DNA from: a virus
Direction: 5' to 3' (one strand)
DNA length: 36,001 nucleotides
IMG/VR virus record: IMGVR_UViG_3300041809_000250
Coordinates: 1 to 36,001 of that record
The first letter of the stretch is position 1, and every line of letters begins with the position of its first letter. The notes under the pieces were generated by a model. It did not search any database. It was not told where the DNA came from and worked only from the letters and a program-made list of their open reading frames with translations. Of the stretch, positions 13,795 to 32,369 are shown one piece after another. The position numbers and the translations under genes are program-made.

Positions 13795-15204
13795 TTAACA
13801 GTTAAGGTTGCTGCCTACGTTCTTTAACACGACCATTTTGTTGGGGTTGTAAAGAATAGGAGTTCCATACCATTTCTGTAACCAACGGATACTATCATCA
13901 ATTATTGCGAGTGGTTGCTTAACCATCGGGAGCAATTGACGAATATCCAATACCTGATCGAAGTCCCAATCCCAAAAGAACGAGTAGTTTGTTCCCGGAA
14001 TTTCACTTCCATCGTCAAAGTATGTTGAGCCTGCGGGAGTAGTTTCAACATACTGATAGGATGTTAAAGCTGTATTGGAAGAAAGTTTCCTGTAAACTTC
14101 AAACGCAGAAGCTTGATAACCTGCAGGTGAGCCGTTATCAGAAAGGACTGCCTGAACCTTTTGACTTGCGCCTATTACGATTCCCTTAACCTCAAAACCT
14201 GCGCCTGCTCCCCACGCACTAACCGGGAGGAAGCAATAGTCATAAGTACCAGGAGTTAACAAAGGTACTGGTGACGGGTCAGTAACAACTGTTACGACTG
14301 CGGTTAAAGCATTCAATGTATTAGGTGAATCCGAACTCATCGGTGCAAATGCAGTATTGTTAGAGTTCATAAAAGGATAAGGATTGTCCGTATTTGTCTC
14401 ACCTTTGCTTTTCAAATGCAAATCGGTTTCCAAATTACCGGAGCCATTCGCGAGTTCCCATTTCTTCGGAACTGCCGTAATATCTCTGATTTCATTATTC
14501 CCTATCATGTATGTTTTATTTTGAATTACGTAGTTAGCATAATTTTGAAATGCACTAATCGGGATCCAACCCTTTAAGTTCATCGGGTCTCCGTAATTAC
14601 CTTCGATAGTTGCGCCGATTTGATTCAAGATAGATGGGGTAATACAGTTCCCTCTTAGATCAATAATGTTTTGAGATGGGTTATTTACTCTGTTATTGAA
14701 CTGTGCAAGGAAGCCGTTGAATTCTGTTGAAATATTAGCACTATTAGCGAAAAACGCTTTGTAATCAATAGTTCTTATGATAGCAATAGCTTTAAGGTTC
14801 TGAATCAAAGTAGTATTGTTTACAAGTGATTTTACACTGTTAGCAACATTAGGAACTTTACCTACTGCGCCAATATATTTCACGCACTCATACTCACGAG
14901 TGATGTCTTCGTCCCATTCGTCCGGTAATCCACCTTCAACGTAGAAGTTAGCTCTACCGATTTTGTTCACAGAAGTGAACTCTTCGACTGTAGACTCGGC
15001 TTTAGACTTGTTTATTTGTAAGAAAAATTTTGATGCCTTTTCTTTTTCTGTCGCATACTTCATGGTTTTTGCAAGACTCTGTAATCTTGTAGCCCCAAAA
15101 CCCGTTTCAGTTTCCGGGCTTACTCCGTATCCAACATCAAGGGCTTTGCGAAGTGCGCCTAAATCGCTCTCCTCAATCCCAAACGATATCATTCTGTCGT
15201 CCAT
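13795..15204 (-). CDS. Major capsid protein
   Basis: This 469-residue protein lies directly after the protease/scaffold gene. The N-terminus resembles capsid proteins of large myoviruses: a short helical region, then GYGVSPETETGFGATRLQS (25-43), then LAKTMKYATEKEKASKFF and a segment ESTVEEFTS leading into the fold. The 25-43 motif also occurs in the protease (14 of 19 positions identical). Residues about 295-400 are beta-rich with Ig-like character (TYDYCFLPVSAWG, AFEVYRKLSS), suggesting an inserted surface domain. AGGAG lies 9 bases before the ATG. It is expected to be the most abundant virion protein; the hairpin behind it fits that. Confidence 0.8.
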   Translation of the reverse strand: MDDRMISFGIEESDLGALRKALDVGYGVSPETETGFGATRLQSLAKTMKYATEKEKASKFFLQINKSKAESTVEEFTSVNKIGRANFYVEGGLPDEWDEDITREYECVKYIGAVGKVPNVANSVKSLVNNTTLIQNLKAIAIIRTIDYKAFFANSANISTEFNGFLAQFNNRVNNPSQNIIDLRGNCITPSILNQIGATIEGNYGDPMNLKGWIPISAFQNYANYVIQNKTYMIGNNEIRDITAVPKKWELANGSGNLETDLHLKSKGETNTDNPYPFMNSNNTAFAPMSSDSPNTLNALTAVVTVVTDPSPVPLLTPGTYDYCFLPVSAWGAGAGFEVKGIVIGASQKVQAVLSDNGSPAGYQASAFEVYRKLSSNTALTSYQYVETTPAGSTYFDDGSEIPGTNYSFFWDWDFDQVLDIRQLLPMVKQPLAIIDDSIRWLQKWYGTPILYNPNKMVVLKNVGSNLNC

Positions 15205-15282: not shown

Positions 15283-16011
15283 TTACTTTTGCATTGAATT
15301 GATTTTAGCCTTAACCATCGGCACTATTGATTCGTCGATGTAGTTCATACCTTCGTATGCACCTACGTCATTGCCGGATATTTTGCCTTCTTCTTTCAAA
15401 GCGTCCAGTGCATTTGCAACTATGGATTTATTCATTTTAGAAAGGTCAATATCAAGGTTTGCTGTTTTAGGGCTGTTTTCGTGATACTGAACTTTGTTGA
15501 GTAAATCTGATGGTGCGAAATTCACGCCTGCGGTTCCCTGCAATGATTTTACTAATAACTGTCCGTTGATCTTTGTTGCTTCGCCTATGATTGCTACTGA
15601 TTTTTTGAAGTTTGAGTTATCGCCTGCCATATCGCATAAGCCTTGTGCAATAGCTTCAACTGATTTAGCAAGTTTGTCTGTTTTTTCCGCGACTGCGGAA
15701 ACAACTTCAAGCAAACTAATATCAGCTTCTTGTTTTGCATTAAAGTATGCTGTTAAATCGGTATTACCGTTAGCATCCTTCATTGAGTTGACTGATTTTT
15801 GTAAACTTTGCGAAATTTTGATTGGGTCGATATTCGCTTCGACTGCCGGGACTTCTTGTGCGCTTGCGATTGCTTTTTTGAATGAGCCCTGCGCCTGAAT
15901 GGATTTATCCATTTGATTGTGTTCCCATTCAGTAGCTTTTTTTTCGGCTTCCTCTTCCGAACATCCCTGACTTAGAAAAGCTTTCTTAGCTTCTTCTTTT
16001 GACTTGAACAT
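15283..16011 (-). CDS. Nested scaffold protein from internal in-frame start
   Basis: Inside the protease gene an ATG at 16009-16011 (M220) is preceded by AAGGAG (16020-16025) with 8-base spacing, a far better ribosome site than the one before the full-length start. Translation there would give a 242-residue helical protein, equal to the scaffold part alone. Overlapping in-frame protease and scaffold genes are known in other phages (lambda C and Nu3). The internal product would be needed in excess over protease. The evidence is the ribosome site and domain boundary; no protein data exist here. Confidence 0.6.
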   Translation of the reverse strand: MFKSKEEAKKAFLSQGCSEEEAEKKATEWEHNQMDKSIQAQGSFKKAIASAQEVPAVEANIDPIKISQSLQKSVNSMKDANGNTDLTAYFNAKQEADISLLEVVSAVAEKTDKLAKSVEAIAQGLCDMAGDNSNFKKSVAIIGEATKINGQLLVKSLQGTAGVNFAPSDLLNKVQYHENSPKTANLDIDLSKMNKSIVANALDALKEEGKISGNDVGAYEGMNYIDESIVPMVKAKINSMQK

Positions 16012-16668
16012 ATTAGAATCTCCTTGTGTAATTTTATTTTTTATTGTTCCCCCTTGACTCCTCAACCTTGTGGCTCCGAAGCCGGTTTCATCGTCCGGGG
16101 CTGTTCCGTATCCTTCTTGTAAACTCTTTACAAAAGTTGCATAGGTCTCCGTATTCTTCGGCTTAACCGTTAGAACTACGTTAGTAATCCTTGCCTTTGA
16201 TACAACTCCTGTCTTTTTATCTCGCTCCAAATACTCGCCCTCTATACTCCATCCAACTTTCTGCGGTTTGTTTGGGTGCAACCGATTATAGTTTTCAATA
16301 GCCTTCAATAAACCATAAGCACTTTTGGCGCATTTTTGTTGTTCTGTTAATTGTTCGTTCGGTAGGCCGTCAAAAGGTATAAGCTCTCCCTCGAATGAAG
16401 CTTGTCTCCCGGACTTAATTAATCTGGAAGGAAAACCGATAATATTATCCGGCTCTTTACTGGTCGGGCTGTCGTGTTCATATTTAATTTTTCCCCAACC
16501 TCCGTCAAAGTAACTAAAATCAAGTCCCTTGGTTAAAAGAGTCTCGCCGTCTGCGTCTTCTTTGTCGGTAGAAAGTACCCCTCCAACCTTGACGGAAGCT
16601 CCAACGCCGGAACCGCTCTTTATTAAATATGCCGGTGCGAAAAAATTAAATTTGTCTTGTTTATTCAT
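15283..16668 (-). CDS. Prohead protease-scaffold fusion
   Basis: This is a 461-residue protein. Residues 1-180 look like a herpesvirus/S78-type prohead protease: H65 in KYEHD and S141 in GWSIEGEY are the expected catalytic histidine and serine. Residues 186-204 carry the GYG..P..ETGFGATRL.S motif shared with the capsid protein. The remainder (about 220-461) is helical, charged and alanine-rich like a scaffold, with EVVSAVAEKTDKLAKSVEAIAQGL. The protease domain would trim scaffold and capsid subunits once the shell is complete. An internal start at M220 probably yields the scaffold alone. The first start has a weak ribosome site and follows a hairpin by 4 bases. Confidence 0.75.
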   Translation of the reverse strand: MNKQDKFNFFAPAYLIKSGSGVGASVKVGGVLSTDKEDADGETLLTKGLDFSYFDGGWGKIKYEHDSPTSKEPDNIIGFPSRLIKSGRQASFEGELIPFDGLPNEQLTEQQKCAKSAYGLLKAIENYNRLHPNKPQKVGWSIEGEYLERDKKTGVVSKARITNVVLTVKPKNTETYATFVKSLQEGYGTAPDDETGFGATRLRSQGGTIKNKITQGDSNMFKSKEEAKKAFLSQGCSEEEAEKKATEWEHNQMDKSIQAQGSFKKAIASAQEVPAVEANIDPIKISQSLQKSVNSMKDANGNTDLTAYFNAKQEADISLLEVVSAVAEKTDKLAKSVEAIAQGLCDMAGDNSNFKKSVAIIGEATKINGQLLVKSLQGTAGVNFAPSDLLNKVQYHENSPKTANLDIDLSKMNKSIVANALDALKEEGKISGNDVGAYEGMNYIDESIVPMVKAKINSMQK

Positions 16669-16797: not shown

Positions 16798-17406
16798 TTA
16801 AAACGAAAGGGAAAATGAGTAGATCACACCCATAAATACCGAGGGCACTAACTTTAGATCTCCGACTATAGGAATAGCATAGCCAATGCCAACACCGAAT
16901 TTGATATGCCAGAAAAAAGTATCCGGGGGTTGCAGGTATGTAGGTTTATATTCCGTCTTTATAAAATGTGTTACCTTGATAGTAGGCTTAACATTAAATT
17001 TATTCACCGGGGGGAACAAATACTTTAATTGCAATCTTAATGTATCTTTTGCCGTGTAGGTAGTGTCACCATATTGAAAATCATTAGGAATTGGTATTGA
17101 CGTATCCGCGATTGCTTCTGTAACTTTCATTTTCACGGTATCGATAATAGTCACCGTGTCTATTTTGGCGGGAATATTATGCTCCGCTACGATCTTTGTT
17201 ATTGTCTTTAATTGTTTAATCGTTGTATCGCTCAAATGAGCCTGTAGATCAAACGCCGGGATAGATATTGAGTCTTGTTTAGCTTCAACCTTTGTCTGCG
17301 GTAAAGGAACCGGTTTAACTTCATAAAATCCTTTTGTAATAAAAAAAGTTATCACAATTGAAATAAGTATACCTACGGTATAGGCAACATGGATAAATGG
17401 TTTCAT
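16798..17406 (-). CDS. Membrane-anchored spanin-like protein (DUF6808-like)
   Basis: This 202-residue protein has one N-terminal membrane segment (about 9-27), a long polar region rich in T, D and K, and a C-terminal part of beta strands (FGVGIGYAIPIVGDLKLV, then VFMGVIYSFSL) that looks like outer-membrane hairpins. This shape matches DUF6808-type proteins I know from Bacteroidota phages. It could span the periplasm and join inner and outer membrane at lysis, although lysis genes lie elsewhere in the window. The start overlaps the nuclease stop as ATGA. The function is inferred from topology. Confidence 0.5.
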   Translation of the reverse strand: MKPFIHVAYTVGILISIVITFFITKGFYEVKPVPLPQTKVEAKQDSISIPAFDLQAHLSDTTIKQLKTITKIVAEHNIPAKIDTVTIIDTVKMKVTEAIADTSIPIPNDFQYGDTTYTAKDTLRLQLKYLFPPVNKFNVKPTIKVTHFIKTEYKPTYLQPPDTFFWHIKFGVGIGYAIPIVGDLKLVPSVFMGVIYSFSLSF

Positions 17407-17690
17407 TGAATTGCTCCTATTGTTCTTAGGGCTTCTTCGGTTGTTTCAACAATTGAAATTTGTCCTGTCCAAGCCATGTGAAATATGTCCTCGTCTTTAG
17501 TTAATAATCTCTTTTTTGGCGGTTGTTCCGGGTTCTTAATCTCCAGTAAATAATTCCTACGCCTAAATCCTACCACGATGTCGGGAAAACCTTTGCCCAA
17601 ACTACTCGTAATAGCCACACTGGCTCCGGCTTTCCTCAGTCCTTCGACAACCGCCTCTTGGTTATCATCAATTCTTGCCTTTTGTCTCAC
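17403..17690 (-). CDS. VRR-NUC-type PD-(D/E)xK nuclease
   Basis: This 95-residue protein has the compact PD-(D/E)xK layout of VRR-NUC nucleases: an N-terminal helix with E12 and E16, then a GFPDIVVG strand (D37), then YLLEIK with E50 and K52. Family members act on branched DNA or serve as phage recombination or packaging nucleases. The length is normal for a stand-alone single domain. The start is GTG (17688-17690) with an AAAGGG stretch 4 bases upstream. It overlaps the preceding helix-turn-helix gene by 23 bases, so both are probably co-translated. An ATG does not occur in a sensible position. Confidence 0.8.
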   Translation of the reverse strand: MRQKARIDDNQEAVVEGLRKAGASVAITSSLGKGFPDIVVGFRRRNYLLEIKNPEQPPKKRLLTKDEDIFHMAWTGQISIVETTEEALRTIGAIQ

Positions 17691-18012
17691 TTTGCCCTTT
17701 ACTTAGCAAATCCTCAAAATCAAACTTTTTGCCCCAATAACGCTCACGGAGTCTGTACGCTGTGCGCCTGCTAATCCCTTCGCTTTCAGCTATCTCCTCT
17801 GTAGTTTGCTTGGCGAATTCCGGGTCGTCTTTTAATTTGAAGTATAGTGATAACTTGTACAATGTAGCAATCGGGAAACTTACTATTTGAAGCTTCCTCA
17901 ACTGCCTGTTAGCATGGTAAATTAATTTTATTGCCTCGTGTCCAACCTTCAACCTTAACTCGTTCAAGATCATTAAAACTTTAATTCTGTCAATCTCTTT
18001 TACGGTTTGCAT
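17668..18012 (-). CDS. Helix-turn-helix DNA-binding protein
   Basis: This 114-residue protein carries a clear helix-turn-helix at about residues 70-92: TTEEIAESEGISRRTAYRLRERY. The N-terminal half is helical and basic and may mediate dimerisation. Phage proteins of this size are often transcription regulators or small-terminase-like factors. It lies in a short operon with a nuclease, just before the terminator and promoter-like motif of the capsid operon, so control of late genes is a reasonable but untested idea. The ATG follows the stop of the gene before it directly (18013). Confidence 0.65.
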   Translation of the reverse strand: MQTVKEIDRIKVLMILNELRLKVGHEAIKLIYHANRQLRKLQIVSFPIATLYKLSLYFKLKDDPEFAKQTTEEIAESEGISRRTAYRLRERYWGKKFDFEDLLSKGQSETKGKN

Positions 18013-18474
18013 TTAGTTAGACCCTCCGTTTTGATCTTCCCTACCCCAAAAGTCTTTTGAGTTAATGCTTTGGTTCGGGATATATGGCATGATCTCATCA
18101 TTTCCTAAATCAATTTGATGAATGTCTTGCGGAGTAGCAAAACTGTTTTCCCGTTCCTTAATATAGAGTAGGGCTCCCAAGACATTGTATATGTCGCTTC
18201 CCTCATCGAATAAATCTTTTACTTTATCGTCAAACTCTGTAAAGCCTCCAACTACATTTTCATACTTCCCGGCTTTTTGGGGTGCGATCTTAAAAAGTAT
18301 CGGGTGAAGAGCTTCCCAAAATCCCCCGGTTTGTTTGTACTCGCCCTGTCCCCGCTCATTGGTTAGCCAAGTGTCAAGAAGCGAGTTAACGGCTTCACTG
18401 ACGTACTGCTCCGGAGTCCTGCCGTCTGCATGTTCCTGAAAGTACCTTTCTAATTCATCTGTTTGGTAATACAT
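18013..18474 (-). CDS. Unknown acidic protein after the DarB-like gene
   Basis: This 153-residue protein starts at ATG 18472-18474, with AAAGGAG ending 8 bases upstream inside the stop of the giant gene (AAG GAG TGA). An in-frame GTG at 18483 has no comparable ribosome site, so I prefer the ATG. The protein begins MYYQTDELERYFQEHADGRT and is acidic, with a phenylalanine- and tryptophan-rich middle (FWEALHPILFKI) and an asparagine-rich C-terminus. I recognise no family. It is coupled to the giant gene and could act with it. Confidence 0.6.
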   Translation of the reverse strand: MYYQTDELERYFQEHADGRTPEQYVSEAVNSLLDTWLTNERGQGEYKQTGGFWEALHPILFKIAPQKAGKYENVVGGFTEFDDKVKDLFDEGSDIYNVLGALLYIKERENSFATPQDIHQIDLGNDEIMPYIPNQSINSKDFWGREDQNGGSN

Positions 18475-18479
18475 TTTAC

Positions 18480-21400
18480 TCACTCCTTTGTTTCTTTGCT
18501 TGGTTCTTCTTTTTGTCCTGTCGCTAATCTCTTAACGATGTTTTCGTAATTTTCGCCATAATATTTCTCGGCTAAACTTTCGGCCTTATTGTGCCTATCA
18601 TAATCTTTTGATTTTAATTCTTTGTGAAGAAATTTAACTACGTTCTCATCTTCCTGCGGGAAAACTATTTTTCCACCTTCGTTGTCAATATACATTTTGG
18701 CTTTTTCAAAATCAGCAATTTTGTATATGCCGTCCATATCCCTATAAATAACTGGATGATAATTATTTTCATCATCTGCAAGGTTTTTAAGTATCTGCGA
18801 TTTATGCTGTTTGAGTATTTCAACCGGCAATCTTGATATTACGCAATCATCATGTGTTTTGTCTTCATTGATTAACTTATCAAATAGCTTAGGCAAATCC
18901 ATCTCGGTTTTTTCAATAGTCTTACCATACTGCGCCTCAAACTGTTTAATCGTTAAGGTCTTGGTCTGTACTCCTGAATATGCGTTCCATGTTTCTAACT
19001 CAACCCTGCCGGTACTATGAGTGTAATTTTTAACTATAGCCAAGTTATCATTTGCAAAACTATATTTGATTATACTATTGATCGGAATTAATGTATCGAA
19101 CTCCGGCATTATGATAGGTCGTTTATCTAAGGTTATTGCGTCCTTGTGTTGGAAGTCCTCCTGCGTATTAACATCATTCTGCAATCTTTCTAATTCCTGT
19201 TCCAACTGCTTGTATTGACGGCTGTCCTTTTCCGGCACTCTATTCATACGGAATTTAAGATCAAATATTTCTTCTAAATTCCTGAACCCGGACATGCGCT
19301 TCTTTTCTTTAATTGCGTTCTGCAAAGAAACATTTCTTCTTTCTAATAGCTTTCGGGCTACGTCCGGATTATCAGCCATGCTTATCATCATATCATCTAA
19401 TGATAATTCAACGTCCGGGTTCCATGTATTGCTTTCGCCCTTCATAAACTCTTCGGTCATTTTACCTTTTTGCCTGACCTTATCACTCATAAACGAGTCA
19501 ATACTTCCCTTGCTGAGATAGTAGTGTGTATTAACAAAATCCAAATCGTTTCCTTGCCTAATTCCTCTACCGTTACCCTGTTCGATCTGTAAATAATTCC
19601 ACGCCGGTTGCAAATGGTGAATATCGCTTGTCAGTTTATTGAAGTTAAGACCTTCACCCATCGTTGCATAGTTACCGATAATTACTTTGTACTTGCCACT
19701 ATTGTAGTCCTCTGAAATTTTCGATCTCTTAATTGGGTCTTTTGCTGTAACGCCGTTCACTACACATATTTCGTCTGACGGAATACCCATATCAGTCAAT
19801 TCTTTTTTTAGTTTATCATGCAACTTTGTATTGATAGCAAATATTAATTGCTTACCTCCGTTTTTGTAAATACCAAGAACACTATCATTCAATTGTTTTA
19901 TTTTTTCCAAATCATTATGCTTCTCGACGTAGTCCTCATCAATCTGTTTTGCAAAGTAAGAATTTTTTTGATTATACCAATCAAGGTCGGAGGCAATCTT
20001 TATCATATCAGACTGGATAGAAAAACCGCAATCATCAATTAGCTCCTCGTCTTTTGCCCCGGTATACTTTGTGTTCAATTCTGCAAGCTTAGGCAAGTAA
20101 TCATCGTGGAAATACTCCGACAATTCATCTGCATCCTCTTGGGTGAACATGCCGTCTTCTATTTCCTTCTTTATCTTCTCTTCGTTTAGCTTCCAAGTCC
20201 CATGATCTTTGTCCCACCTTTTGAAACGTACTGTCCAAATTCTCAATTGGCAATTCCTGAATAATTTTTTTTGCCCTTCATTAAGAGTTGACATAACGTT
20301 TTCCGGTTTTTCATTAGGAAATTTTATGTTAGCTTTAACGCTCTGAACATCGTCCTTGGTCTTGTAATCCGTAAATCTGAAAAATAATTTTCTCAATATA
20401 TCCGGTGAACTCCATCCTCCAAATTTCTCTTTCATTATTACTCTACCGTCCGTATCGGTAGTAGGCGCATATTCTTTGATGGCAAACTTGCGGATAAAAT
20501 CATCCATGTTATTTATTCCAAGGTCTGCAAGCTCTTTCTCGGCTACAGGCAATAACATATTAAATACTTCAAGTGGGCTATTACTAATCGGTGTAGCTGT
20601 GAGGGAATAAAAGCCTCCTTCATTATTCTGAGATCTAATAATCTTTGAAGCAAATAAATTGTGTGTCGATCTTTGTGCCGATGTAGAGTTCACGCCCTTA
20701 ATGTTTTCTTCAATGCTCTGGAGGAGGTTCTTTGAATCGTGCGCCTCATCTCTCACCATCATATCAAACCCTAAGTTTTCAAGGTAGATGCCCTGTATTG
20801 CGTCCTTGTTCTCCATCATCTTTGACAACTGCTGTAAAGCATGATCTCTTTTCTTTTTTGCTAATTTACTGGCTGACTCCAGTTGCGGGTAATATTTTTC
20901 GACTAATTCATCTAACATATTTTTCTTTGTTTCCGGAGCCAGGTCAATCATCCCAAAAGTATCACGGCTCATTAGTACCATGTCGTATTCACCGCTTGCG
21001 ATCTGCATTAACTTAACTCTCTTCTCGCCAGCATTTTCCTCAACCCATCTTGATACGCCTGCCTTATTTGTAACTTTCTTCATTCCTACAACTACGTAAT
21101 TAACTCCAACCGTCCATTTGTCAATCTCATTCAACCAATTTTTCAGAACTGATTTAGGTGTTACGATTAAAGGTTTCTTCGCTCTCCCGGTCTCCTTGTG
21201 TAGCAACGTCAAGACAATAGCCTCTAACGTTTTTCCTAATCCGACTCCGTGTGCGACTAATCCTTTCTTTTGGTCATACATTCTGCGCACTAACGCCCAA
21301 GTATGAGCTCCGGCTTTTTCTCTGGCTGTAACCTCCCTACCGTTCGGGGTAGTAGCAATTACCCTGTCGTAGGCAAATTTGCTTAGATTCTCAATCGGGC

Positions 21401-24400
21401 TTTCGTCATATTGTTTTTGCAAATAATTATTGTAGGCTCTATTGTACCGATCTGTTATTGCATCTGACTGTTCATGTCCTTTAAGGAATTTTACAAAACC
21501 GCTTTTAACTTTAGCAATATCCGCTTTAAGTCTCTCGGCTTTTTCGTCTTTTGCAAATATTCGATTGATACCGTTTATGTTAGTTAGCAATGTCAAATAA
21601 AACGGATTATTCTCATCATCGTTTTTGAAATAAAGTTTCAATAGTTCTTTTAATCTGGCATTTTCCTTTTTATCATTTGCTCCTTTGTTGGCAAACAAAA
21701 GATAAAGTTCTTTGTGTATCCCAGTTACGGGCACAATCATTTTTAATTTATCATCATAGACAAGCTTGTCTGCAAAGTTCGCTCCTATTTGCCCGTCTAA
21801 ATATTGGTTTAAAATATCTATACTGAAAAGTTTACCTGCGTCCGACATCATCACCGGCAAGTAATCTAATTCTTTAATGCCTGCCCGTCTCCTCAATTCA
21901 AATATTTGATTTTCCAACTTTTTATCTAACAATTCAAGCTCGTTTCTTCGGCCCGGGTCGGCTGACTCCAACTTTTTCTTGATACTTTTTCTTTTGTCGG
22001 CCCATGCATCCAATTTCCAGTAAACATCACCTACACATACCTCCTGAATAGGTGCATAATCCATGTTTTCATCTAAGAACACGTCTTCACTGTGAAGAAG
22101 AGCTAATTCTAAATCATCATCTCCCGTGTAGAGGCTTCTAATTGATTCCAAATCTCCCGGAATATGGTTATTAACCAAATATTGAGTAATAGAAAAAATA
22201 TCGTTACTGTCATAAACGCCTATATCGGTACTGGATTTATAAACGTTGGTAAAAGCAATCGGGTCTTTGAATATCTGACTAAGATCACCCTTGAGGTCAA
22301 TTGCTCCGGCTATATATAAGATAGGATTAAGTACCGATCTGCCTAAAAACTTTGTGAGCTTGGCTTCTTTTGTCGGGTCTCCGTAAACTTCTACAAATTG
22401 TTTAACTAATCCTCCTAATTGCTCGGCTTTCTTTTGTGCATCACTCGTACTAAATTGACCCTCCTGCAGACCTAACTGAAAATCTCTAATGGCGAGTCCC
22501 AAAGTGACAGCTTTTCTAACCATAATATCTTGGTAATCGCTTTTACCTGTATAGCTCTGTAGTTCCCGGTCTAATCTGTTTCCGAAATCGCCTCCTAAAA
22601 CTGAAATCTGATCTCTCGTTAAATCAGTAATCTTAGATATGTCATTTTGGAGTTCTGTCAACTCCGCGAGGTTATTTACCCTTAGTTTTTCTTTCTGATC
22701 TTCGGGTATACACGTATAATTAGCAAGGTCTTCCTCGTTTATTCTTTCCCATCTATGATTTTCATTCAAACGATAATTTCTACCGTTGATCTGTTTCATG
22801 TCTCCTACATGGAGCTCTTCTTCATTAGATGGCATTGAAGTAATTCCGAGGGCTACATAATCGTCCTTATCCCTCTTCAGCATATCCATCATGCCGTTCA
22901 GTTCCGGTATTTTGAGATCACCCTGCCAAATCTTTTGTCCGAACTGACCAGTACTTTCTTTTCCAAGCGCATACTGCGGATTTTTCTCAAAGTACTTTCC
23001 ACTTATAAAATCATTGTCCAAAACCATTGAATCATATAGTTGATCTAATTCTCCAGACTTTAGATCATTCAATCTTTCTATTGCCTGCTGTGGTCTTTTG
23101 CGGAAGAAAACAATATCCGTTGTTACTTGTGCGTTTGCGTGTTTGAAGGCTCCTGTAGGCATACGAACTGCACCCAAAAATTCGGCTTTTTTGTTCATTG
23201 CAAGCCTCCACGTAGCAAGCTGATTGTCCATTATCCCGGTTGGGACTATCATTCCTAAAATGCCGTATGCTTTTAGATCGTCAATACCTCTCAGAATAAA
23301 ATATTGTTCGTGTGTAGGTACGTCCTGATATGCTGGGTCGTCAATTACACACGCTCCCCTTACGCCGAATGGTGCGTTTCCTATTACTGCGTTATACTCT
23401 CCTCCATCTGAACTGCGGTTAAACTGTTCAAAGCTCTGAATTCTTATGTCGTGGTTCTGTCCATAAAGAATGTCTGCAACCCTACCACTTACCGGGTCAA
23501 TTTCAACGCCGGTAACTAAAGTGTCTTGCGGTGCGGTGTGAATGAAGTTACCTGTAGCGCAGGAAGGTTCAAGCACCTGGCCTCCCTTAAAGCCTAAATT
23601 TTGTATTGCCTTCCACATGAATTCAGTTACCTCCGGAAGAGTGTAGAATTCATTCAGACTAATATCGTCTAAGGTTTCACTTCCTAAATTTCCCCGTCCG
23701 GTATACTGGATAAGTTTTTCCTTATCCTCTTTTGTAAAATCTTTATTCTCTTTTGTGGCCAATAATTCCCTAACCTCTGTATTTAATTTCTCTCTGTTCT
23801 TTTTACCAACGACTTTGGTGTATTCAATGTCTTCAACTTTATCGGCTGGCTTAGTCGTAGGTTTGTTAGATGCAGGTTTACTTTCCTTAGAAGGTTCATT
23901 AGCATCAATGGGCTTGGGACTTTTTCCGATTCCGTGGGTTGATTCTGGCTTTGCTGTTGCCTCACTTGTTTCTCCTTTATGTCCTTGTTCAATTAGGTTC
24001 TGTATCCATGTTCCAAGAAAACTATTTTGACCTTTCTTCTCTTTAAGGTTAACTGCCTTCTGTTCAAACATATCATCATATACCTCGGAATATGTTCCGG
24101 CATAATGATTTTCAAAAGTTAATGCTTCAACTGTTCCGTATTTAGAATCGACTGCAATCTCCATGCGTGGGTCACTCATTAAATCGCCGTTCTGTGTTCC
24201 GAACTGACCCATTGAAACAATCCTCCTGCCCTGGCTGTCTGTTCCGTAACCTTCAACTGATAAGTCCATGTACCCATCGGACTTTAATTTGAAATGATCT
24301 CCGACTTTTATACTGTCAAGGTTTGGAATAACTTTTTTTAGATTACGATAATTCTTACCATAAATCGTATCGTAAAACGGGTTGTCCGCTTTCTTGATTT

Positions 24401-25220
24401 TCTCTACCGGCTTTACTGCGGGTGTCTTTTCTAAAGGCTTTTCATTTGCTATCGGTTCTGCCGATACCGGTTTTTTTTCTTCCGGCTGATTAAACAGTTC
24501 AAGCATTGAGTGAAAGGCTGTAGTGGTTTTTTTAGTTCCCGCTACAGACGAATTTTTTGGTTTCTTATTAAGAGCTACATTGTTTCCAAACAAGGATAAA
24601 GGAGGAGTAGTTTCTGCCTTCTCGCCTTCTTTGAACAATCGCAATACCGACGGGTTTTTTTTTGAACGCTTGTATTGGTAGGTCTGTCCGTCCTTAGTAA
24701 CTGTCTTCCCTTCTTTTGGCTCGCCTTCTTGTGTTTGTTTGAATAAATCTATTTGAACTAAATTAGGAACCTTTATTCCCTTGAAGAGTTGAATAATATT
24801 GTTGACCGCCTTTATCATTTTTCCTTCTCGTTTGGTTAATTTATCTTTGAATTCTGAAAAGTTCATTGGAGTTATACCTTGTAGAAATGTTTGCTCGTCA
24901 TAATGCTTGCGGAATGCGTCCCTTGCTTCCTGCTCGGTGTTAAAACCCAACATCACTTTATCTTCATCATACTTCCCTGTCTCCGGGTTCTGTATATGAG
25001 CAACAAAAACCTGATCGCTATTTTTGTTATCACCTATGAAGCAATCAACTTCATCCCCATCCGTGCCAAATGTACCGGAAATATAACCGTAAGGATTTTG
25101 CATTTTCGTTTCCCACTCGGTTCCATCTGCATCTGTCCCTATTCGTACACTTCCTGTCCGGTTCTCAATCTTTATGTTTAGTCCTTGAAAATCTAAACTA
25201 CCTTGTAACTTGTAACTCAT
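18480..25220 (-). CDS. DarB-like polyvalent protein: InPase-like, N6-adenine methylase and SNF2 helicase
   Basis: This 2246-residue protein is a large polyvalent protein. Residues 1-125 match the InPase-like domain found at the start of such proteins (YGYISGTFGTDGDEVDCFIG). QIDLF lies at 156-160. A methylase follows: motif I LEPSCATGNF (550-559) and the catalytic NAPF (615-618), an N6-adenine type. HRW occurs at 822-824. The SNF2/superfamily 2 helicase has GVGLGKT (1325-1331), DEAH (1491-1494), TATPISN (1541-1547) and QGNGRGIRQGN (1881-1891). Phage P1 DarB combines methylase and helicase and is injected with DNA to block type I restriction. The same use is inferred here because the gene sits among head genes. 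The C-terminus, from about 1990, is helical and then unknown. Confidence 0.8.
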   Translation of the reverse strand: MSYKLQGSLDFQGLNIKIENRTGSVRIGTDADGTEWETKMQNPYGYISGTFGTDGDEVDCFIGDNKNSDQVFVAHIQNPETGKYDEDKVMLGFNTEQEARDAFRKHYDEQTFLQGITPMNFSEFKDKLTKREGKMIKAVNNIIQLFKGIKVPNLVQIDLFKQTQEGEPKEGKTVTKDGQTYQYKRSKKNPSVLRLFKEGEKAETTPPLSLFGNNVALNKKPKNSSVAGTKKTTTAFHSMLELFNQPEEKKPVSAEPIANEKPLEKTPAVKPVEKIKKADNPFYDTIYGKNYRNLKKVIPNLDSIKVGDHFKLKSDGYMDLSVEGYGTDSQGRRIVSMGQFGTQNGDLMSDPRMEIAVDSKYGTVEALTFENHYAGTYSEVYDDMFEQKAVNLKEKKGQNSFLGTWIQNLIEQGHKGETSEATAKPESTHGIGKSPKPIDANEPSKESKPASNKPTTKPADKVEDIEYTKVVGKKNREKLNTEVRELLATKENKDFTKEDKEKLIQYTGRGNLGSETLDDISLNEFYTLPEVTEFMWKAIQNLGFKGGQVLEPSCATGNFIHTAPQDTLVTGVEIDPVSGRVADILYGQNHDIRIQSFEQFNRSSDGGEYNAVIGNAPFGVRGACVIDDPAYQDVPTHEQYFILRGIDDLKAYGILGMIVPTGIMDNQLATWRLAMNKKAEFLGAVRMPTGAFKHANAQVTTDIVFFRKRPQQAIERLNDLKSGELDQLYDSMVLDNDFISGKYFEKNPQYALGKESTGQFGQKIWQGDLKIPELNGMMDMLKRDKDDYVALGITSMPSNEEELHVGDMKQINGRNYRLNENHRWERINEEDLANYTCIPEDQKEKLRVNNLAELTELQNDISKITDLTRDQISVLGGDFGNRLDRELQSYTGKSDYQDIMVRKAVTLGLAIRDFQLGLQEGQFSTSDAQKKAEQLGGLVKQFVEVYGDPTKEAKLTKFLGRSVLNPILYIAGAIDLKGDLSQIFKDPIAFTNVYKSSTDIGVYDSNDIFSITQYLVNNHIPGDLESIRSLYTGDDDLELALLHSEDVFLDENMDYAPIQEVCVGDVYWKLDAWADKRKSIKKKLESADPGRRNELELLDKKLENQIFELRRRAGIKELDYLPVMMSDAGKLFSIDILNQYLDGQIGANFADKLVYDDKLKMIVPVTGIHKELYLLFANKGANDKKENARLKELLKLYFKNDDENNPFYLTLLTNINGINRIFAKDEKAERLKADIAKVKSGFVKFLKGHEQSDAITDRYNRAYNNYLQKQYDESPIENLSKFAYDRVIATTPNGREVTAREKAGAHTWALVRRMYDQKKGLVAHGVGLGKTLEAIVLTLLHKETGRAKKPLIVTPKSVLKNWLNEIDKWTVGVNYVVVGMKKVTNKAGVSRWVEENAGEKRVKLMQIASGEYDMVLMSRDTFGMIDLAPETKKNMLDELVEKYYPQLESASKLAKKKRDHALQQLSKMMENKDAIQGIYLENLGFDMMVRDEAHDSKNLLQSIEENIKGVNSTSAQRSTHNLFASKIIRSQNNEGGFYSLTATPISNSPLEVFNMLLPVAEKELADLGINNMDDFIRKFAIKEYAPTTDTDGRVIMKEKFGGWSSPDILRKLFFRFTDYKTKDDVQSVKANIKFPNEKPENVMSTLNEGQKKLFRNCQLRIWTVRFKRWDKDHGTWKLNEEKIKKEIEDGMFTQEDADELSEYFHDDYLPKLAELNTKYTGAKDEELIDDCGFSIQSDMIKIASDLDWYNQKNSYFAKQIDEDYVEKHNDLEKIKQLNDSVLGIYKNGGKQLIFAINTKLHDKLKKELTDMGIPSDEICVVNGVTAKDPIKRSKISEDYNSGKYKVIIGNYATMGEGLNFNKLTSDIHHLQPAWNYLQIEQGNGRGIRQGNDLDFVNTHYYLSKGSIDSFMSDKVRQKGKMTEEFMKGESNTWNPDVELSLDDMMISMADNPDVARKLLERRNVSLQNAIKEKKRMSGFRNLEEIFDLKFRMNRVPEKDSRQYKQLEQELERLQNDVNTQEDFQHKDAITLDKRPIIMPEFDTLIPINSIIKYSFANDNLAIVKNYTHSTGRVELETWNAYSGVQTKTLTIKQFEAQYGKTIEKTEMDLPKLFDKLINEDKTHDDCVISRLPVEILKQHKSQILKNLADDENNYHPVIYRDMDGIYKIADFEKAKMYIDNEGGKIVFPQEDENVVKFLHKELKSKDYDRHNKAESLAEKYYGENYENIVKRLATGQKEEPSKETKE

Positions 25221-25243
25221 TCAGCTTGCCTTGGAATATTTGT

Positions 25244-25278
25244 TTAATTATAGCTTTATATTAGCAAACTATAATTAA
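25244..25278. promoter_or_regulatory. AT-rich dyad upstream of the DarB-like gene
   Basis: Perfect 10-bp inverted repeat TTAATTATAG/CTATAATTAA with a 15-base spacer, in the 77-base gap between the two giant genes. The layout matches the dyad at 28799-28829 (same spacer, related half-sites). Its right half on the minus strand contains TATAAT, so it may overlap a promoter. Confidence 0.5.
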
Positions 25279-25297
25279 TGTAAGGTTTCGGTAAAAA

Positions 25298-28200
25298 TCA
25301 ATCACTTTTTTTATTATTTAACATTTGTCTCTCTGCACTTGCATTGACTGACACATCAAATAAAGATAATTGATCTTTATTCCCTGTGCTTTGCCATCTT
25401 TTTACCTCTGGATTTTTTCTACTCCAAGTAAGAATATTCTTAGCCTTGTCAATCGCCTTCCTCATAGATGAGAACAGAGATTTCCCTATCATGGGTTCTT
25501 TCGCCCCTATCCCGCCCGGAAAAGTTGTTTTGAAGTTTTTGCTGAACGCTTCCTCCGGACTCATCCCCGAACTAAACATATCGCCTGCAAGGTCAAAGGT
25601 ATAGTTTTTAATTGTTCCTCGGATTTCTTTCTGTGTCTTGTTAGCAAGGGTTTCTACAAGCGCAACGGTCTTAGAATTAGCATTTAACGGGTCAAGCCTG
25701 TTGTTTTCCTCCTGCCTCAAAAATCCGTTCACATCATCTTTGAAACTTTCCTTTTCCGTTTCGTACAGTCTCAATATTCTTAATGCTTTCCCTAAATCCT
25801 CTGATATATCTCCCAGCTTACCTTTCAGTGACATAATATCACCGATTGAATCGGTTATACCTCGCTGTGTAGCATCGGGCAAATAATCTAAATGCTCGCC
25901 GTTTTCTCCAAATAGCCTTTGGGTAATTATATCCTTGATTTTATCTTTCTGCTCGGGTAAAAGTTTTTTTGACTTTAGATCATAATAATTTGGTAGTTCG
26001 TTATCTGCTATTACACCTCTCTTTAACATTTCATTTACTAATGGCTCGCCTATTTTATCAAGGTATTCTCTGATTGTTCCCCCTCCCTCCATTTTGGCAT
26101 CATTGAAAAGATCAGCAATCTTATTAAAGAGTGAATTGTCAATCAGTACGGCTTTAGCTTTCCCGCTTTCAGTTCTCGTCTGTGCGAGCTTAGTATCTGA
26201 ATTGCTTTGAACTCCAAGCTCATGAATGCGCTTTATATCGTCTACAGCTAACCTTCTCACTACTACCGGCTCTTGCATCTTTTCAATATCATCCGGCCTA
26301 AAGCCTAAACGGTCTGCGTTCTCAATAAGCTTCTTTTTGTATACGTCACTTCCGTTCTCATAGCTTGATGCAATTCCTAAACCTCTGCCGTTCCCGGCAA
26401 TTACTTCATAGTCCTTCGATATAGTGGGAGCTCCATAATCGACTGTAGATGAGAAGTCAGGGAGGAATGTATCGAAGTTCTCCCCGATGTCATTTGCAAT
26501 CCCGGCTACCTGTCGTTTGGATTGTTCGCTTGTGCGATCTCTGTTCTGTGCTTCCTTTATGGAATATTTTTCATTGAACCTACCGTCTGTATGGTGACTC
26601 ATAATTAAATCTTTTAATTCAATCACTTCCCATGTTGCATACTCCTTTACCTTTGGTGTAAAATATACAAGCTGTGGTTTCTTACTCGATACTATTCCTT
26701 TACTAAGGTCTGTTGACTCAAATATCCTTTTGCCGTTTAACTCTTTCAGTGTATCTACCGATACTGCGCTTGCGTTTCCGTCCGCATCTTTGTAGCAGAC
26801 AAACTGTGTCCCGTCAATTTCAGTAATATCTGTAATCGGGCAATTCAGCCCCCCAATCTGTACCGTATCATATTTACCTTTGGACTGAGTAATATTGAAC
26901 CGCTCGCCCTCTTTGTCGTACTGAGCATTAAATGTAAATGGTATATCTCCAACGGTTATTTTCTTTTGTGCGTAAAATTTATTATCTCCTAATTCATAAC
27001 CTCCTCTTTGTAATTTCGCTGATGAATTTATATACGCCTGACTTTCTACGACCTTCTTGGTATCCTGATTTAACAAATCTCTCGATTGCTCATACTCTTT
27101 CTGTCTGCACTTATCCGATTCTAAATCATCAACTGTTTTAGAGTTCCTCTTGCCTCTAAACCTGTTCATTTTAGTTTTAAGCCTTTCTAACCTCTCTAAT
27201 TGTTCCGGGGAAAGTTCACCGCTAAAATGATACGTTTTTGTAGACGGTTCATTCATCTCGTCTTCTAATTCTTTTTGATGTTCCTTATAGTTGATAAAGA
27301 ATAAATCTCCGTCCTTGTCCTCGCCTGCGTACCCTTCCGTATCCATATCCCGTATAACATAATCAGTATCGCCGTGCCTTATTTTGAAGTCTGCAACTCC
27401 ATCGATCAAAGTATCTACATCTTTCCATTGCGGATTATAATGCCTGCTTACTTGATGAGTAGTATCTCCCGTGTTGACATACTTGGTAAAGATTAGATCA
27501 TTCTTTTTGCCGAACCCGCCTTCTTGTGAAGTGGTTGCAAATTGTTGGTATTCCGGTTGGTTCGCATAATCGTAGTTAGCCATTAAGAAACCATCATCTT
27601 GATTATAGGCTCCGTTCACCGTCTGCGCTGAACTAATTACTTTGTTATTTACCTTTGGTAATTTTAATTGTAGTTTTTGTTCATTGGATTTGTACGGTTC
27701 AATGGGTTGAGCTCTCCTTATATAAACAGACTCGCCGTCAGCTTTTTTAGTTAAGATTATACTATCAGAAATGTACTTGATAGTTCCCATATCTCCGTTG
27801 CCAAGTGAAATAGTATTGCCTATTTTATAACTCGTTTGATCTTGGACTTTCTTCATATAGTCCTGCTTATTGATCTGGTAAATCTTTTTGTTTTCCATTT
27901 CAAGCCACATATAATTAGGCGAAGTATCTTTAACTCTTGCAATCTGACCTTTGTAGGTTGCATATTCACCGGGCTTAAAAGAATTAAGATCAACATTCTG
28001 CGGTGTCGTATGTCCCGGTGTGGTGATTTCTTTCTGAACTTCTTCACCCTCTCCATTTTTCCATACTTTGCCGCTAGGTAGTTCATACAAGTAAATGTAT
28101 TTATCCCGCGGGTTTTTCGGGTTAGGATTAGGTTTTCGTTCAATATATTTATGTCCCGGTCTTTCACCTCTGTTGCTTCCAACATTACCCATAGTAATCT

Positions 28201-28786
28201 TGGGGGCTTTAAGTGAAATACCGAACGCTTTAAATATTAAATCCTTCGGCAGCTGATCTTCTACGATCAATATTTTTGGGAGGAGAGCGACTATAACTTC
28301 TTCAACAAACATTTTTCCAATAACCGGCTTCCGAACTTTGACTCTTATTTCGTTATACCGGCTCTTGCATATAAAAATATGCTCATGCTTATCATGCTTT
28401 ATATAATCAGGATAGCATAAAGCTTTCCTAATGCTGTTTGATTGCGCATCTGCTCTTACAAGTCCTATCGGTGTTTCAAATGTACCTGACAATAAACGCT
28501 CCGGGTTCTGTTCTATCTCCGGCTGTTTGGTCTTTATAAGCAATTCATTTGCAATTGACTTTCGTATAACATTAGTTTTCCTATTCGTAAAATCTTTAGC
28601 CACTACTACGTTATCCCCGATGGCTAATATCACACCCTGCGGAATGACATCTCCACTTTCAATAACATTGATGGGAACAATATCTTTCAACATACCTTCG
28701 TTATCTCTGGTACAAATGAAATTATTCTCTAAACTCTTGTGAATAAATCCACCTTCATAATCAGGTATTTTGAAAAGATGCTTCAT
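25298..28786 (-). CDS. DdrB-like polyvalent protein with ParB-fold domain
   Basis: This protein has 1162 residues from the ATG at 28784-28786; a TTG three codons earlier is less likely. The N-terminal half is a series of beta-rich segments. Residues about 730-870 match the DdrB-like ParB superfamily domain: SHHTDGRFNEKYS, AQNRDRTSEQS, then GNGRG (about 798-802) and VVVRRL. In P1, DdrB is an internal head protein of the Dar anti-restriction set. A basic region contains RPGHKYIERKPNPNPKNP (about 215), typical of polyvalent proteins. QLSLFD lies at about 1139-1144, near the C-terminus, and is a perfect sliding-clamp-type peptide. It precedes the DarB-like gene. Packaging and injection are inferred from P1. 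Confidence 0.7.
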   Translation of the reverse strand: MKHLFKIPDYEGGFIHKSLENNFICTRDNEGMLKDIVPINVIESGDVIPQGVILAIGDNVVVAKDFTNRKTNVIRKSIANELLIKTKQPEIEQNPERLLSGTFETPIGLVRADAQSNSIRKALCYPDYIKHDKHEHIFICKSRYNEIRVKVRKPVIGKMFVEEVIVALLPKILIVEDQLPKDLIFKAFGISLKAPKITMGNVGSNRGERPGHKYIERKPNPNPKNPRDKYIYLYELPSGKVWKNGEGEEVQKEITTPGHTTPQNVDLNSFKPGEYATYKGQIARVKDTSPNYMWLEMENKKIYQINKQDYMKKVQDQTSYKIGNTISLGNGDMGTIKYISDSIILTKKADGESVYIRRAQPIEPYKSNEQKLQLKLPKVNNKVISSAQTVNGAYNQDDGFLMANYDYANQPEYQQFATTSQEGGFGKKNDLIFTKYVNTGDTTHQVSRHYNPQWKDVDTLIDGVADFKIRHGDTDYVIRDMDTEGYAGEDKDGDLFFINYKEHQKELEDEMNEPSTKTYHFSGELSPEQLERLERLKTKMNRFRGKRNSKTVDDLESDKCRQKEYEQSRDLLNQDTKKVVESQAYINSSAKLQRGGYELGDNKFYAQKKITVGDIPFTFNAQYDKEGERFNITQSKGKYDTVQIGGLNCPITDITEIDGTQFVCYKDADGNASAVSVDTLKELNGKRIFESTDLSKGIVSSKKPQLVYFTPKVKEYATWEVIELKDLIMSHHTDGRFNEKYSIKEAQNRDRTSEQSKRQVAGIANDIGENFDTFLPDFSSTVDYGAPTISKDYEVIAGNGRGLGIASSYENGSDVYKKKLIENADRLGFRPDDIEKMQEPVVVRRLAVDDIKRIHELGVQSNSDTKLAQTRTESGKAKAVLIDNSLFNKIADLFNDAKMEGGGTIREYLDKIGEPLVNEMLKRGVIADNELPNYYDLKSKKLLPEQKDKIKDIITQRLFGENGEHLDYLPDATQRGITDSIGDIMSLKGKLGDISEDLGKALRILRLYETEKESFKDDVNGFLRQEENNRLDPLNANSKTVALVETLANKTQKEIRGTIKNYTFDLAGDMFSSGMSPEEAFSKNFKTTFPGGIGAKEPMIGKSLFSSMRKAIDKAKNILTWSRKNPEVKRWQSTGNKDQLSLFDVSVNASAERQMLNNKKSD

Positions 28787-28798
28787 ATTAAACAATCA

Positions 28799-28861: not shown

Positions 28862-29914
28862 TTAATAGCCTAAAATGTTTTCGTTGTACCATTGTTTATA
28901 CGCTTCCGGGTCTTCAACTTTTAGCCGGATATTTCCGTCTTTGTCAATCCATTGTAGAATAGGATTAAATGCAATCCATCTGCATCGGCATTGAGGGTGT
29001 AACGGAATCACCGGCATTGAAAGTTCGTGATGTTCCCGGTAGGTCAAGTTCTCTGTTGTATTCCCCTTATGCTTATCAATTCTTTTCCGCATTGCGGTTG
29101 ATCTGCCATAATTACTTTTTCCAACCCAAATTTCATTTTCCCAAATGTCTGCAATCTTGTTATATTCTTCCCCGGTTAAATTAGAATAGTCCAGGGGAGC
29201 TTCGGCTCTTACCTTGTAAACCTTACCATTGAGTAAATCAAAACAGTGAGGACATGCGTCCGGCATACTGATGCCGACTACATACTCGCCTTCTTCCATC
29301 ATAGATAAGTAGCCATTACTAAATGCATCGTTCGTCTCGCAAATAGCAACTCGTTTCCAATCCCTGTTAAGCTCTCCTACTTCATCTGCTAAACCTCTTA
29401 ACCGCTCTTCTATCCTCCTGATACCTTCGTGTTTTTCTACAGCTTCAACAAGCGTGTTCTTTACTGTTTGTTGTGTGCTCGATAAGGTATTCGATAACTC
29501 AACGGCTCCTCGTTCTACAGCCTGCTCAAAACGCTTCGCTTCTTCGATTGAAAGATTATACTTCTTAACTGCGTCCTGTAAATACTTCGGCAATAGGCTG
29601 ACTTCATCAATCTTGAATTCTTCACCTTGATTGTCTGACTCTGCCAATAATCTCCCGATTATGTAGGCTCGCAAAAAGAAAGTTTTAGCTTCCGGTACAA
29701 TTCCATTAAAATAGTTCCGGGTGAACTCGTCAACTGCCTGCATCTCTTCAAAAGTCAAATAATCTTTTGTCTTTAGATCAATGGCTTTACTCTGAAACAT
29801 GAACTCGCCTAAATCATTGTAGTACTGCTCTGGATTAAGTAATCCAAATAGTTGACGTTCGATGTAGTCAAGCTCTTTTAGATGCTGTATTTTGTTATCG
29901 ATTGTTATAATCAT
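28862..29914 (-). CDS. MuF-like minor head protein
   Basis: This 350-residue protein has the Mu gpF/SPP1 gp7 pattern. An N-terminal helical part is followed by CETNDAFSNGYLSMMEEGEY, then CPHCFDLLNGKVY, and a C-terminal HPQCRCRW at about 306-313. The two cysteine clusters are thought to bind metal in this family. MuF proteins join the portal inside the head and may enter the cell with DNA. The start overlaps the stop of the preceding gene as TAATG. The protein ends soon after the HPQCRC element, so no extra toxin domain is fused here, unlike some MuF proteins. Confidence 0.85.
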   Translation of the reverse strand: MIITIDNKIQHLKELDYIERQLFGLLNPEQYYNDLGEFMFQSKAIDLKTKDYLTFEEMQAVDEFTRNYFNGIVPEAKTFFLRAYIIGRLLAESDNQGEEFKIDEVSLLPKYLQDAVKKYNLSIEEAKRFEQAVERGAVELSNTLSSTQQTVKNTLVEAVEKHEGIRRIEERLRGLADEVGELNRDWKRVAICETNDAFSNGYLSMMEEGEYVVGISMPDACPHCFDLLNGKVYKVRAEAPLDYSNLTGEEYNKIADIWENEIWVGKSNYGRSTAMRKRIDKHKGNTTENLTYREHHELSMPVIPLHPQCRCRWIAFNPILQWIDKDGNIRLKVEDPEAYKQWYNENILGY

Positions 29915-30442: not shown

Positions 30443-32275
30443 TTAAATATCCGAATCCTGCTCGGAAACGTCTTTGTATTTTTCGATTAACTGTTTATCA
30501 CGATCTGTGTCCTGTCCGGGCTGTGGTTGTTCCTGCGCCTGATCGTTTTGCTCCTGTGCTATCTCCTTATCTGGCTCTCCGAGTTTGGCTTGGTTCGGCT
30601 TGGCTACCTCTCCGGGTTTTCCGGTTTCTTCATCGCCGAGCTGAGGTTGCTGTCCCGGTTGTGGTTGCTGACTTTTTTGTTGTGCATTAAACAACACTGC
30701 TTGGAATATCTGCGGGTTTTGAATACCCTTTACATCGAATATATTTACATCTCCTAACATTAACTCTTGGCGTTCCTTATCCTGTTCTGCTAATAGGTCG
30801 TTTACGCTTTGTATCGTGGCAAGTTTGCCTTTACTGATCTCTAATTTTTGTTTTTTATCTTCAATTTGGAATCCGGTAAATTGCAACTTCACGTCAAGCT
30901 TAGTTATCTCTTGACATACGTTATTACCGTGTTTGTTTGGTGAGTTGAAAGAGTCTGCAAAGTGCTGTAAGAATGTTTTAAGTCCCGTGTCCTTGCTTTC
31001 CTTCACTATTCCGTCTGTAGGTTCATCAAATATCGACTTCTGCCCAACAGCATCTCCGTAAGCTCCTAACGATAACTCTCTTGGATCTGTCCCGGATAAC
31101 ATACAGAAGATAGAAAAGAGCAATGTCATAAATTGATGATACTCTGCGTCCCGGCTGTTGTTTCTGACTCCTACCCATTTGCCGTCTGCTTTCTCGCCTC
31201 TCAAAGCCATTGCCGGGAACCTTGATGCGTTACTGGCTCCTGAACTATAGGCGTAGAATAGCTTCTTTAACTTCTCAAGCTGTGGTTGATTTACTCCCCC
31301 ACCAGTAAACAAGAAAAATCCCAATGGTAATTTGCTATTTGTAAAATTGCTCGCATTCATTTTGAGTGCGTTTACAATGTAGGTAATCATTCTAATCGCT
31401 TGTTCTACGATTGAATAACCTCTCTGCGCCTTTTGGAATTTTGACCGGGTAAAGAAATGATGTTTCCTTACATATTCTCTTGAAGATACTGCAAGCTTCT
31501 GGCCTTGATATACGCATACATAATCCGGGTCGTCTTCTTTATCAAATAATTCTTTTTCTTCTTTAAGGTCATACAGCTTTTCATAGTTTTTCAGTAACTC
31601 GGTAAGTTCATCTGTGTGATAACGAATTCCTCCGGTGAATTTAGGTACTTTAATTATTGGCTTCCATATAATCGGGTCTTGTATCTGTATTGCAATTGGT
31701 CTGCCCTGTCCGTCCCGTCTCATCTCCCAAGTCATATCGTCTACATCAAAAAAATCTTCATAGCTTGCACCTAAAAAGTTTCCGAAGTTTGCGTAGGGTG
31801 AATTTGGAGGGAAGAAAAAATTATCAAACATTCTTTGTTCCCACTGGCGTAGGATTGCTTTTTCTTCTTTAGATGGTGCATAATCAGGATTGTTATAAAC
31901 TAACTTAGCTCCTCTTTCGATTGAATCACCTATAGGTGCGCGTCCGTATGTTATTAAATCCAACCTACGCTTATTCTTTATCAGCCTTGCCGGTTCGCTT
32001 TCCCCGGCGTTTCTCAATATCTCATAACTGGTCGGCTCGGTTTCCCAATTTATATACCTGTAGTTATCAGTAGCATCAAATTGAGGGTTCTCGATCTCTC
32101 GTAAAACCGACAAGATTTCTTCCGACAATTCATAATTGATTGATTGGTTAGCATCTAACCGGTTAAAGTCTTCTGATAAGTATGGATTGCTTAATATTTG
32201 GTCAACAAATGCGTTGGGGTTTTGCTGTTGTGTGTCGTTTGCTTGTGCATCATCTAAACTAATATTCAAGGGCAT
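30443..32275 (-). CDS. Portal protein
   Basis: This 610-residue protein, counted from ATG 32273-32275, precedes MuF and has portal features: IWKPIIKVP, then a long helical wing with EELFDKEDDP, then RKHHFFTRSKFQKAQRGYSIVEQAIRMI, where RGxSxxE is typical of portal proteins of this type. A conserved helix-strand stretch around AMALRGEKADGKWVGVRNNS follows. The C-terminal 90 residues are rich in glutamine, proline and aspartate (QPQPGQQPQLGD), as in the flexible tail of many portals. A TTG start 16 codons upstream lacks a ribosome site. The twelve-subunit ring is the DNA entry and exit channel of the head. Confidence 0.85.
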   Translation of the reverse strand: MPLNISLDDAQANDTQQQNPNAFVDQILSNPYLSEDFNRLDANQSINYELSEEILSVLREIENPQFDATDNYRYINWETEPTSYEILRNAGESEPARLIKNKRRLDLITYGRAPIGDSIERGAKLVYNNPDYAPSKEEKAILRQWEQRMFDNFFFPPNSPYANFGNFLGASYEDFFDVDDMTWEMRRDGQGRPIAIQIQDPIIWKPIIKVPKFTGGIRYHTDELTELLKNYEKLYDLKEEKELFDKEDDPDYVCVYQGQKLAVSSREYVRKHHFFTRSKFQKAQRGYSIVEQAIRMITYIVNALKMNASNFTNSKLPLGFFLFTGGGVNQPQLEKLKKLFYAYSSGASNASRFPAMALRGEKADGKWVGVRNNSRDAEYHQFMTLLFSIFCMLSGTDPRELSLGAYGDAVGQKSIFDEPTDGIVKESKDTGLKTFLQHFADSFNSPNKHGNNVCQEITKLDVKLQFTGFQIEDKKQKLEISKGKLATIQSVNDLLAEQDKERQELMLGDVNIFDVKGIQNPQIFQAVLFNAQQKSQQPQPGQQPQLGDEETGKPGEVAKPNQAKLGEPDKEIAQEQNDQAQEQPQPGQDTDRDKQLIEKYKDVSEQDSDI

Positions 32276-32369
32276 TGTTAGGCATTCCGATATAAATTTG
32301 CAACTAATGATTCCACTTAGCAATTGGAATAGTTTAATCTAAACGTATTGTTTTGTTACCTAAATGCCC

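Follow-up and report, generated by a model that had tools for sequence, protein, structure and literature searches.

A Dar-like gene triad with a pyrophosphatase-like domain among the head genes of a phage in an IMG/VR record

The closest described counterpart of the locus reported here is the Dar system of phage P1, which comprises DarA, DarB, DdrA, DdrB, Hdf and Ulx. P1 packages DdrB, DarB and Ulx in its head and injects them, which protects its DNA against restriction by the host. DarB is located in the P1 head and protects in cis, and its capsid-targeting signal lies within its first 30 residues. To our knowledge, it is not settled, even in P1, how DarB blocks restriction. A role in the localization of DarB has been ascribed to Ulx, and one in adding DarB to the capsid to DdrB. 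Ulx, DarB and DdrB are linked to protection against EcoB/EcoK (PMC12810830). P1 particles without DarA or Hdf lose every other Dar protein (PMC12810830). Furthermore, a DarB-like protein was detected by mass spectrometry in virions of the podovirus JC1.

Several components of this system are known from other contexts. Iyer et al. (2017; PMC5512222) described polyvalent proteins with InPase, DdrB-ParB and LPD36-methylase-SWI2/SNF2 domains encoded beside virion genes, and considered for InPase either the clearing of PPi or the hydrolysis of an infection-induced nucleotide; their study mentions neither Ulx nor the cassette as such. In Thermus Lalka phages, according to the available part of a report from 2024 (PMC11437467), a darB homolog is likewise followed by a ulx homolog, and the same packaging hypothesis is put forward; these phages belong to a different group, and that part of the report does not mention InPase or DdrB. 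Finally, Bordetella phage vB_BbrM_PHB04 and related contigs share with our locus the order portal, MuF, InPase, DarB, Ulx and capsid, but PHB04 encodes InPase as a separate gene, has no DdrB-ParB that we could find in the locus and carries a second helicase gene after ulx.

The window, i.e. the whole stretch of 36,001 nucleotides that was analysed, comes from the 36-kb virus record IMGVR_UViG_3300041809_000250, has a G+C content of 38.5% and carries nearly all of its genes on the minus strand. In the order of transcription, its head region reads portal, a gene of unknown family, MuF-like, DdrB-like, InPase-DUF6908-methylase-SNF2 (DarB-like) and Ulx-like, followed by an HTH protein, a small, weakly nuclease-like protein and, after a second gene of unknown family, the head protease-like and major capsid proteins. 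Packing is tight, with 77 bp between ddrB and darB:

30443..32323, minus strand, portal protein (phrog_11117, E 1.5e-14)
29914-30420, gene without an assigned family, between the portal and MuF-like genes
28862..29914, minus strand, MuF-like minor head protein (weak TIGR01641; E 2e-17 against its positional counterpart in PHB04)
25298..28786, minus strand, DdrB-like polyvalent protein (1162 aa from the ATG at 28786; the open reading frame opens at TTG 28795)
18480..25220, minus strand, DarB-like polyvalent protein of 2246 aa with InPase, DUF6908, gamma-class N6-adenine methylase and SNF2 ATPase
18013..18483, minus strand, Ulx homolog of 156 aa that shares 4 bp with the end of darB (phrog_1629 ‘Ulx-like anti-restriction’, E 6e-6)
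15283..16668, minus strand, head maturation protease-like protein (phrog_1028, E 7e-23)
13795..15204, minus strand, major capsid protein (phrog_752, E 6e-58)

Between ulx and the protease gene lie the small gene with weak VRR-NUC/endonuclease similarity (17403-17690) and the HTH gene (17668-18012), the latter of which is also found in relatives. Upstream of the portal gene, a small gene resembles nucleoside 2-deoxyribosyltransferases (32695-33057; phrog_355, E 1.5e-7). At 25-27% identity, the major capsid protein has distant kin in Bacteroides phages, DAC16 among them, and in SPO1-like Bacillus phages.

The original prediction, made from the DNA alone, had placed a DarB-like and a DdrB-like gene next to each other, downstream of portal and MuF, and Pfam and PHROGs matches on the minus strand bear this out. 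It had described them as a pair; both genes are real, but the set is a triad, as the Ulx homolog had been overlooked. As in P1, a DarB-type methylase-SNF2 protein is directly followed by Ulx, and a DdrB-ParB protein is present. Unlike in P1, ddrB is joined to darB and ulx beside the portal, MuF and capsid genes, DarB bears InPase and DUF6908, and DdrB has an internal ParB domain and no metallopeptidase motif, while DarA and Hdf were not detected.

The DarB-like protein has the following domains:

24837..25214, minus strand, InPase domain, type I pyrophosphatase-like (aa 3-128; PF18823, E 7e-43)
23979..24344, minus strand, DUF6908 domain with no assigned function (aa 293-414; PF21849, E 6e-25)
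22971..23813, minus strand, LPD36-like N-terminal helical part and N6-adenine methylase (aa about 470-750; motif IV N615-A-P-F618)
19296..21299, minus strand, SNF2-type ATPase (aa about 1308-1975; PF00176, E 1e-16, and alignment to P1 DarB)

With several enzymatic domains in a single protein encoded amid virion genes, it is a polyvalent protein, and with an N6-methylase and an SNF2 ATPase in about 2250 aa, it is built like P1-type DarB. It matches the PHROGs families of phage DarB-type methylase-helicases (phrog_11801, E 1e-211) and ‘DarB-like antirestriction’ proteins (phrog_10089, E 1e-125), and in phmmer searches its methylase and helicase parts retrieve P1 DarB (E 1e-87) and the PHB04 protein (E 8e-145). 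Over DarB, the identity to PHB04 is 29%. InPase, SNF2 and ddrB-ParB were recovered by Pfam, and the methylase by alignment to DarB and by phmmer. Aligned with P1 DarB, the protein keeps Walker A (GLGKT), DEAH and motif VI as well as motif IV (NAPF) of the methylase; the SNF2 motifs read GVGLGKT (1325-1331), DEAH (1491-1494) and QGNGRGIRQG (1881-1890), and the N and P of motif IV are unchanged in 73 of 73 aligned DarB-like sequences. The LPD36 motif GxG[GAS] reads GRGN in the window and GRGG in its relatives, with G in the last position in 69 of 71 aligned sequences. PADLOC and NCBIfam also returned DpdE, ZorD, DrmD and BrxH; since these matches lie far below the family cut-offs and reflect common SNF2/methylase similarity, we rejected DISARM, Dpd or a similar defence system.

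The identification of Ulx rests on profiles and position, as tblastn with the window protein found nothing in phages, even at E 1, and the single pairwise comparison with P1 Ulx is weak (E 3e-4). The PHROGs family that it matches also takes in P1 Ulx (E 6e-65) and the PHB04 gene (E 7e-26). Starting with the window protein, an iterative profile settled on 79 of 8163 open reading frames from 89 loci, P1 Ulx included, and the reverse search from P1 Ulx retrieved the window protein at E 3e-28 among 80 matches in 80 loci; from either end, one Ulx-like gene per locus was recovered. The match directly follows darB in 30 of the 33 non-redundant loci, against a chance expectation of about one, and because the profiles ignored position, this placement is independent support. 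The AF2 model is confident (pLDDT 90.6) and found no fold match in BFVD or the PDB, so that structure supports neither side. On these sequence comparisons, we assign 18013-18483 as a Ulx homolog.

A scan of viral contigs with the single protein returned no relatives of the cassette; an alignment was required. The resulting profile search of IMG/VR yielded nine loci, six of them distinct, with best-segment identities of 42-49%, and a genome scan added two loci in metagenome-assembled genomes (MAGs), one from Ignavibacteriales and one from Bacteroidetes. The cassette was thereby found again in eight distinct related loci. DarB proteins of relatives share 44-48% identity with that of the window over the full length. 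Wherever the flanks are long enough, the order is portal/MuF, DdrB, DarB, Ulx, protease and major capsid protein. In the Ignavibacteriales MAG, a portal gene shares the contig with the cassette. The Bacteroidetes MAG locus lies on a 346-kb contig, surrounded by DnaK, pantoate ligase and phosphofructokinase genes and with a serine recombinase nearby; provided that the MAG assembly is correct, it is a chromosomal prophage. The host of the window phage is probably a member of the Bacteroidota. A second lineage, typified by PHB04, shares this order but has no DdrB and encodes InPase separately. The phage had also been called contractile, which our searches do not sustain: no sheath family matched in any of the eight records examined (the window and seven relatives). 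Four relatives encode Baseplate_J, which contractile phages usually have.

For the DdrB-like protein, the ATG at 28786, the start originally proposed, agrees better with the N-termini of the relatives than the TTG at 28795. Its defining domain is internal:

26249..26638, minus strand, DdrB-ParB domain (aa 720-849 counted from 28795; PF18763, E 6e-20; QNRDR and GNGR motifs, the latter with R804)

N802 and R804 are present in 28 of 28 homologs. In L013 (1943-7447), the corresponding protein has an insert of ~90 aa soon after the GNGR motif. The HExxH motif of the C-terminal metallopeptidase of P1 DdrB was not seen in the window protein, whose C-terminus has no recognisable domain; among the relatives, HEFAH motifs occur in L008, L009 and L013, ART-PolyVal domains at the C-termini of L012, L017 and L089 and an HD domain in that of L089. 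The AF2 model of the window protein was poor (pLDDT 49) and therefore not used.

The short interval between ddrB and darB is filled in L008-L015 by N6/N4 methylases:

L008:8413-9921, L009:8251-9921, L010:8202-9923, L012:9207-9839 and L013:8844-9923, DNA methylase genes in the ddrB-darB gap
L088:4362-9808, minus strand, genes for two HsdS-like proteins, an HsdM-like protein, an N6/N4 methylase and a BsaWI-type endonuclease in the ddrB-darB gap

The block in L088, the Ignavibacteriales MAG contig, runs on the opposite strand. Observations from single loci such as this are tentative because MAG and metagenome contigs may be misassembled. The adjacency of dar and restriction-modification genes in some relatives recalls P1, where the order is res-mod-lxc-ulx-darB.

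In the reading that we favor, at a probability of about 0.72, the triad is a late-gene anti-restriction module that is injected with the DNA and operates without the loaders known from P1. Helped by Ulx and the DdrB-like protein, the DarB-like protein would enter the procapsid and later be ejected together with the DNA; in the new host, its SNF2 motor would move it along the entering DNA, and the N6-adenine methylase and/or the moving motor would stop restriction enzymes, which in P1 are the type I enzymes EcoB and EcoK. We infer packaging, injection and protection from P1. The homology to DarB and DdrB, the position among late genes, the adjacent Ulx and the recurrence of the cassette favor this assignment: homologs of all three proteins adjoin inside a head gene cluster, the order portal, MuF, (ddrB), InPase, darB, ulx and capsid genes recurs in relatives (in PHB04 and its kin without ddrB), methylase, SNF2 and InPase retain their catalytic motifs, a DarB-like protein occurs in JC1 virions, and an InPase domain is attached to a portal C-terminus in the PDB. 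It is weakened by the failure to find DarA and Hdf, by the missing DarB leader (see below), by a DdrB with an internal ParB and no C-terminal metallopeptidase, and by the GRGN variant of LPD36.

The variable C-termini of the DdrB-like proteins would also suit packaged and injected proteins that serve chiefly an early take-over of the cell, with InPase, a ParB-type nuclease and C-terminal effectors attacking host nucleotides or signaling while the methylase-helicase part handles the incoming DNA for replication. The ADP-ribosyltransferase (ART-PolyVal) and HD domains in relatives, the conserved catalytic residues of InPase and the nucleotide targets proposed for it by Iyer et al. (PMC5512222) all fit. 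However, such effector domains are absent from the window DdrB-like protein, the neighboring slot in relatives is filled by methylase and restriction-modification genes, and P1 Ulx, DarB and DdrB are specifically linked to EcoB/EcoK protection (PMC12810830); we consider this alternative unlikely.

Within an injected anti-restriction module, InPase would be a passenger, whose most likely task is to remove pyrophosphate or a phosphoanhydride nucleotide formed on infection. Column counts over about 42 sequences identify E19, R26, Y44, D54, D56, D59, D85 and K88 as conserved; the window keeps the metal-binding acids (E19, D54, D56, D59 and D85), and the DGDxVD motif aligns with E. coli PPase (E about 0.04). 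The domain is probably an active phosphohydrolase. Of 36 DarB clusters, 9 have it as part of DarB and 11 have it no more than 3 kb upstream, and some loci have it joined to DdrB in place of DarB; in DarB it is optional. A phage portal sequence in PDB 9b41, by name and length presumably the Pa193 gp19 portal, has this domain at its C-terminus as well. Since the catalytic acids are kept and the domain also occurs at a portal C-terminus, it seems to be an enzyme carried in the head. The same portal could, at low odds, speak for a structural or targeting module without enzymatic activity, which would be compatible with the main explanation: residues 529-765 of the Pa193-type portal are without density, the DarB of L012 (9971-10030) reads as a clean in-frame loss of InPase with the leader retained, and InPase is apparently absent from the DarB of L088. 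A mere tether, however, would need none of the acids, R26 and Y44 that almost all of the 42 sequences retain.

Least probable, and quite improbable overall, is a methylase that marks progeny DNA late in the producing cell, with protection by methylation and no injected protein; the active-looking N6-methylase, the late position and the ordinary methylases in the same cassette of relatives are in line with it, but it would be redundant beside the latter, P1 DarB and its JC1 counterpart are virion proteins, and the conserved partner Ulx has a packaging role in P1.

DarA and Hdf families had no match in the window, in six viral records (several of them fragments) or in the two MAGs, while a P1-like control was positive, and the P1 DdrA profile matched neither the window nor the family loci. 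In the relatives, DarB has a leader of ~25-70 residues ahead of InPase, at the site of the capsid-targeting signal of P1 DarB; in the window, InPase begins almost at once, and no in-frame upstream start exists. As DarA and Hdf are needed in P1, either another loader exists or the packaging inference is wrong. A tentative idea, to which we give somewhat less than even odds, is that phages of Bacteroidota and their relatives have a Dar system loaded without DarA and Hdf, in which Ulx, DdrB and neighboring head proteins (MuF, the N-terminal 700 aa of DdrB) take over, DarB loaded in this way brings a phosphohydrolase along, and DNA-modification genes suited to the restriction systems of the host are swapped in and out of the ddrB-darB gap. 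Both the substrate of InPase and the replacement for DarA/Hdf are speculative.

The original observation is thereby confirmed, and its interpretation is partly supported, being plausible and strengthened by Ulx. The combination appears less novel than had been suggested and also less unusual, given the polyvalent proteins with InPase and DdrB-ParB of Iyer et al. (2017): the domains, the class of architecture and the darB-ulx pairing are already published, and the locus is a rearranged version of a known kind of system. It suggests that the loading of DarB is separable from the DarA/Hdf scaffold of P1, and pares the Dar system down to DarB, Ulx and DdrB, perhaps its core. InPase, a domain without an established role, gains a repeated genomic partner, and DarB and Ulx travel together through many lineages of tailed phages.
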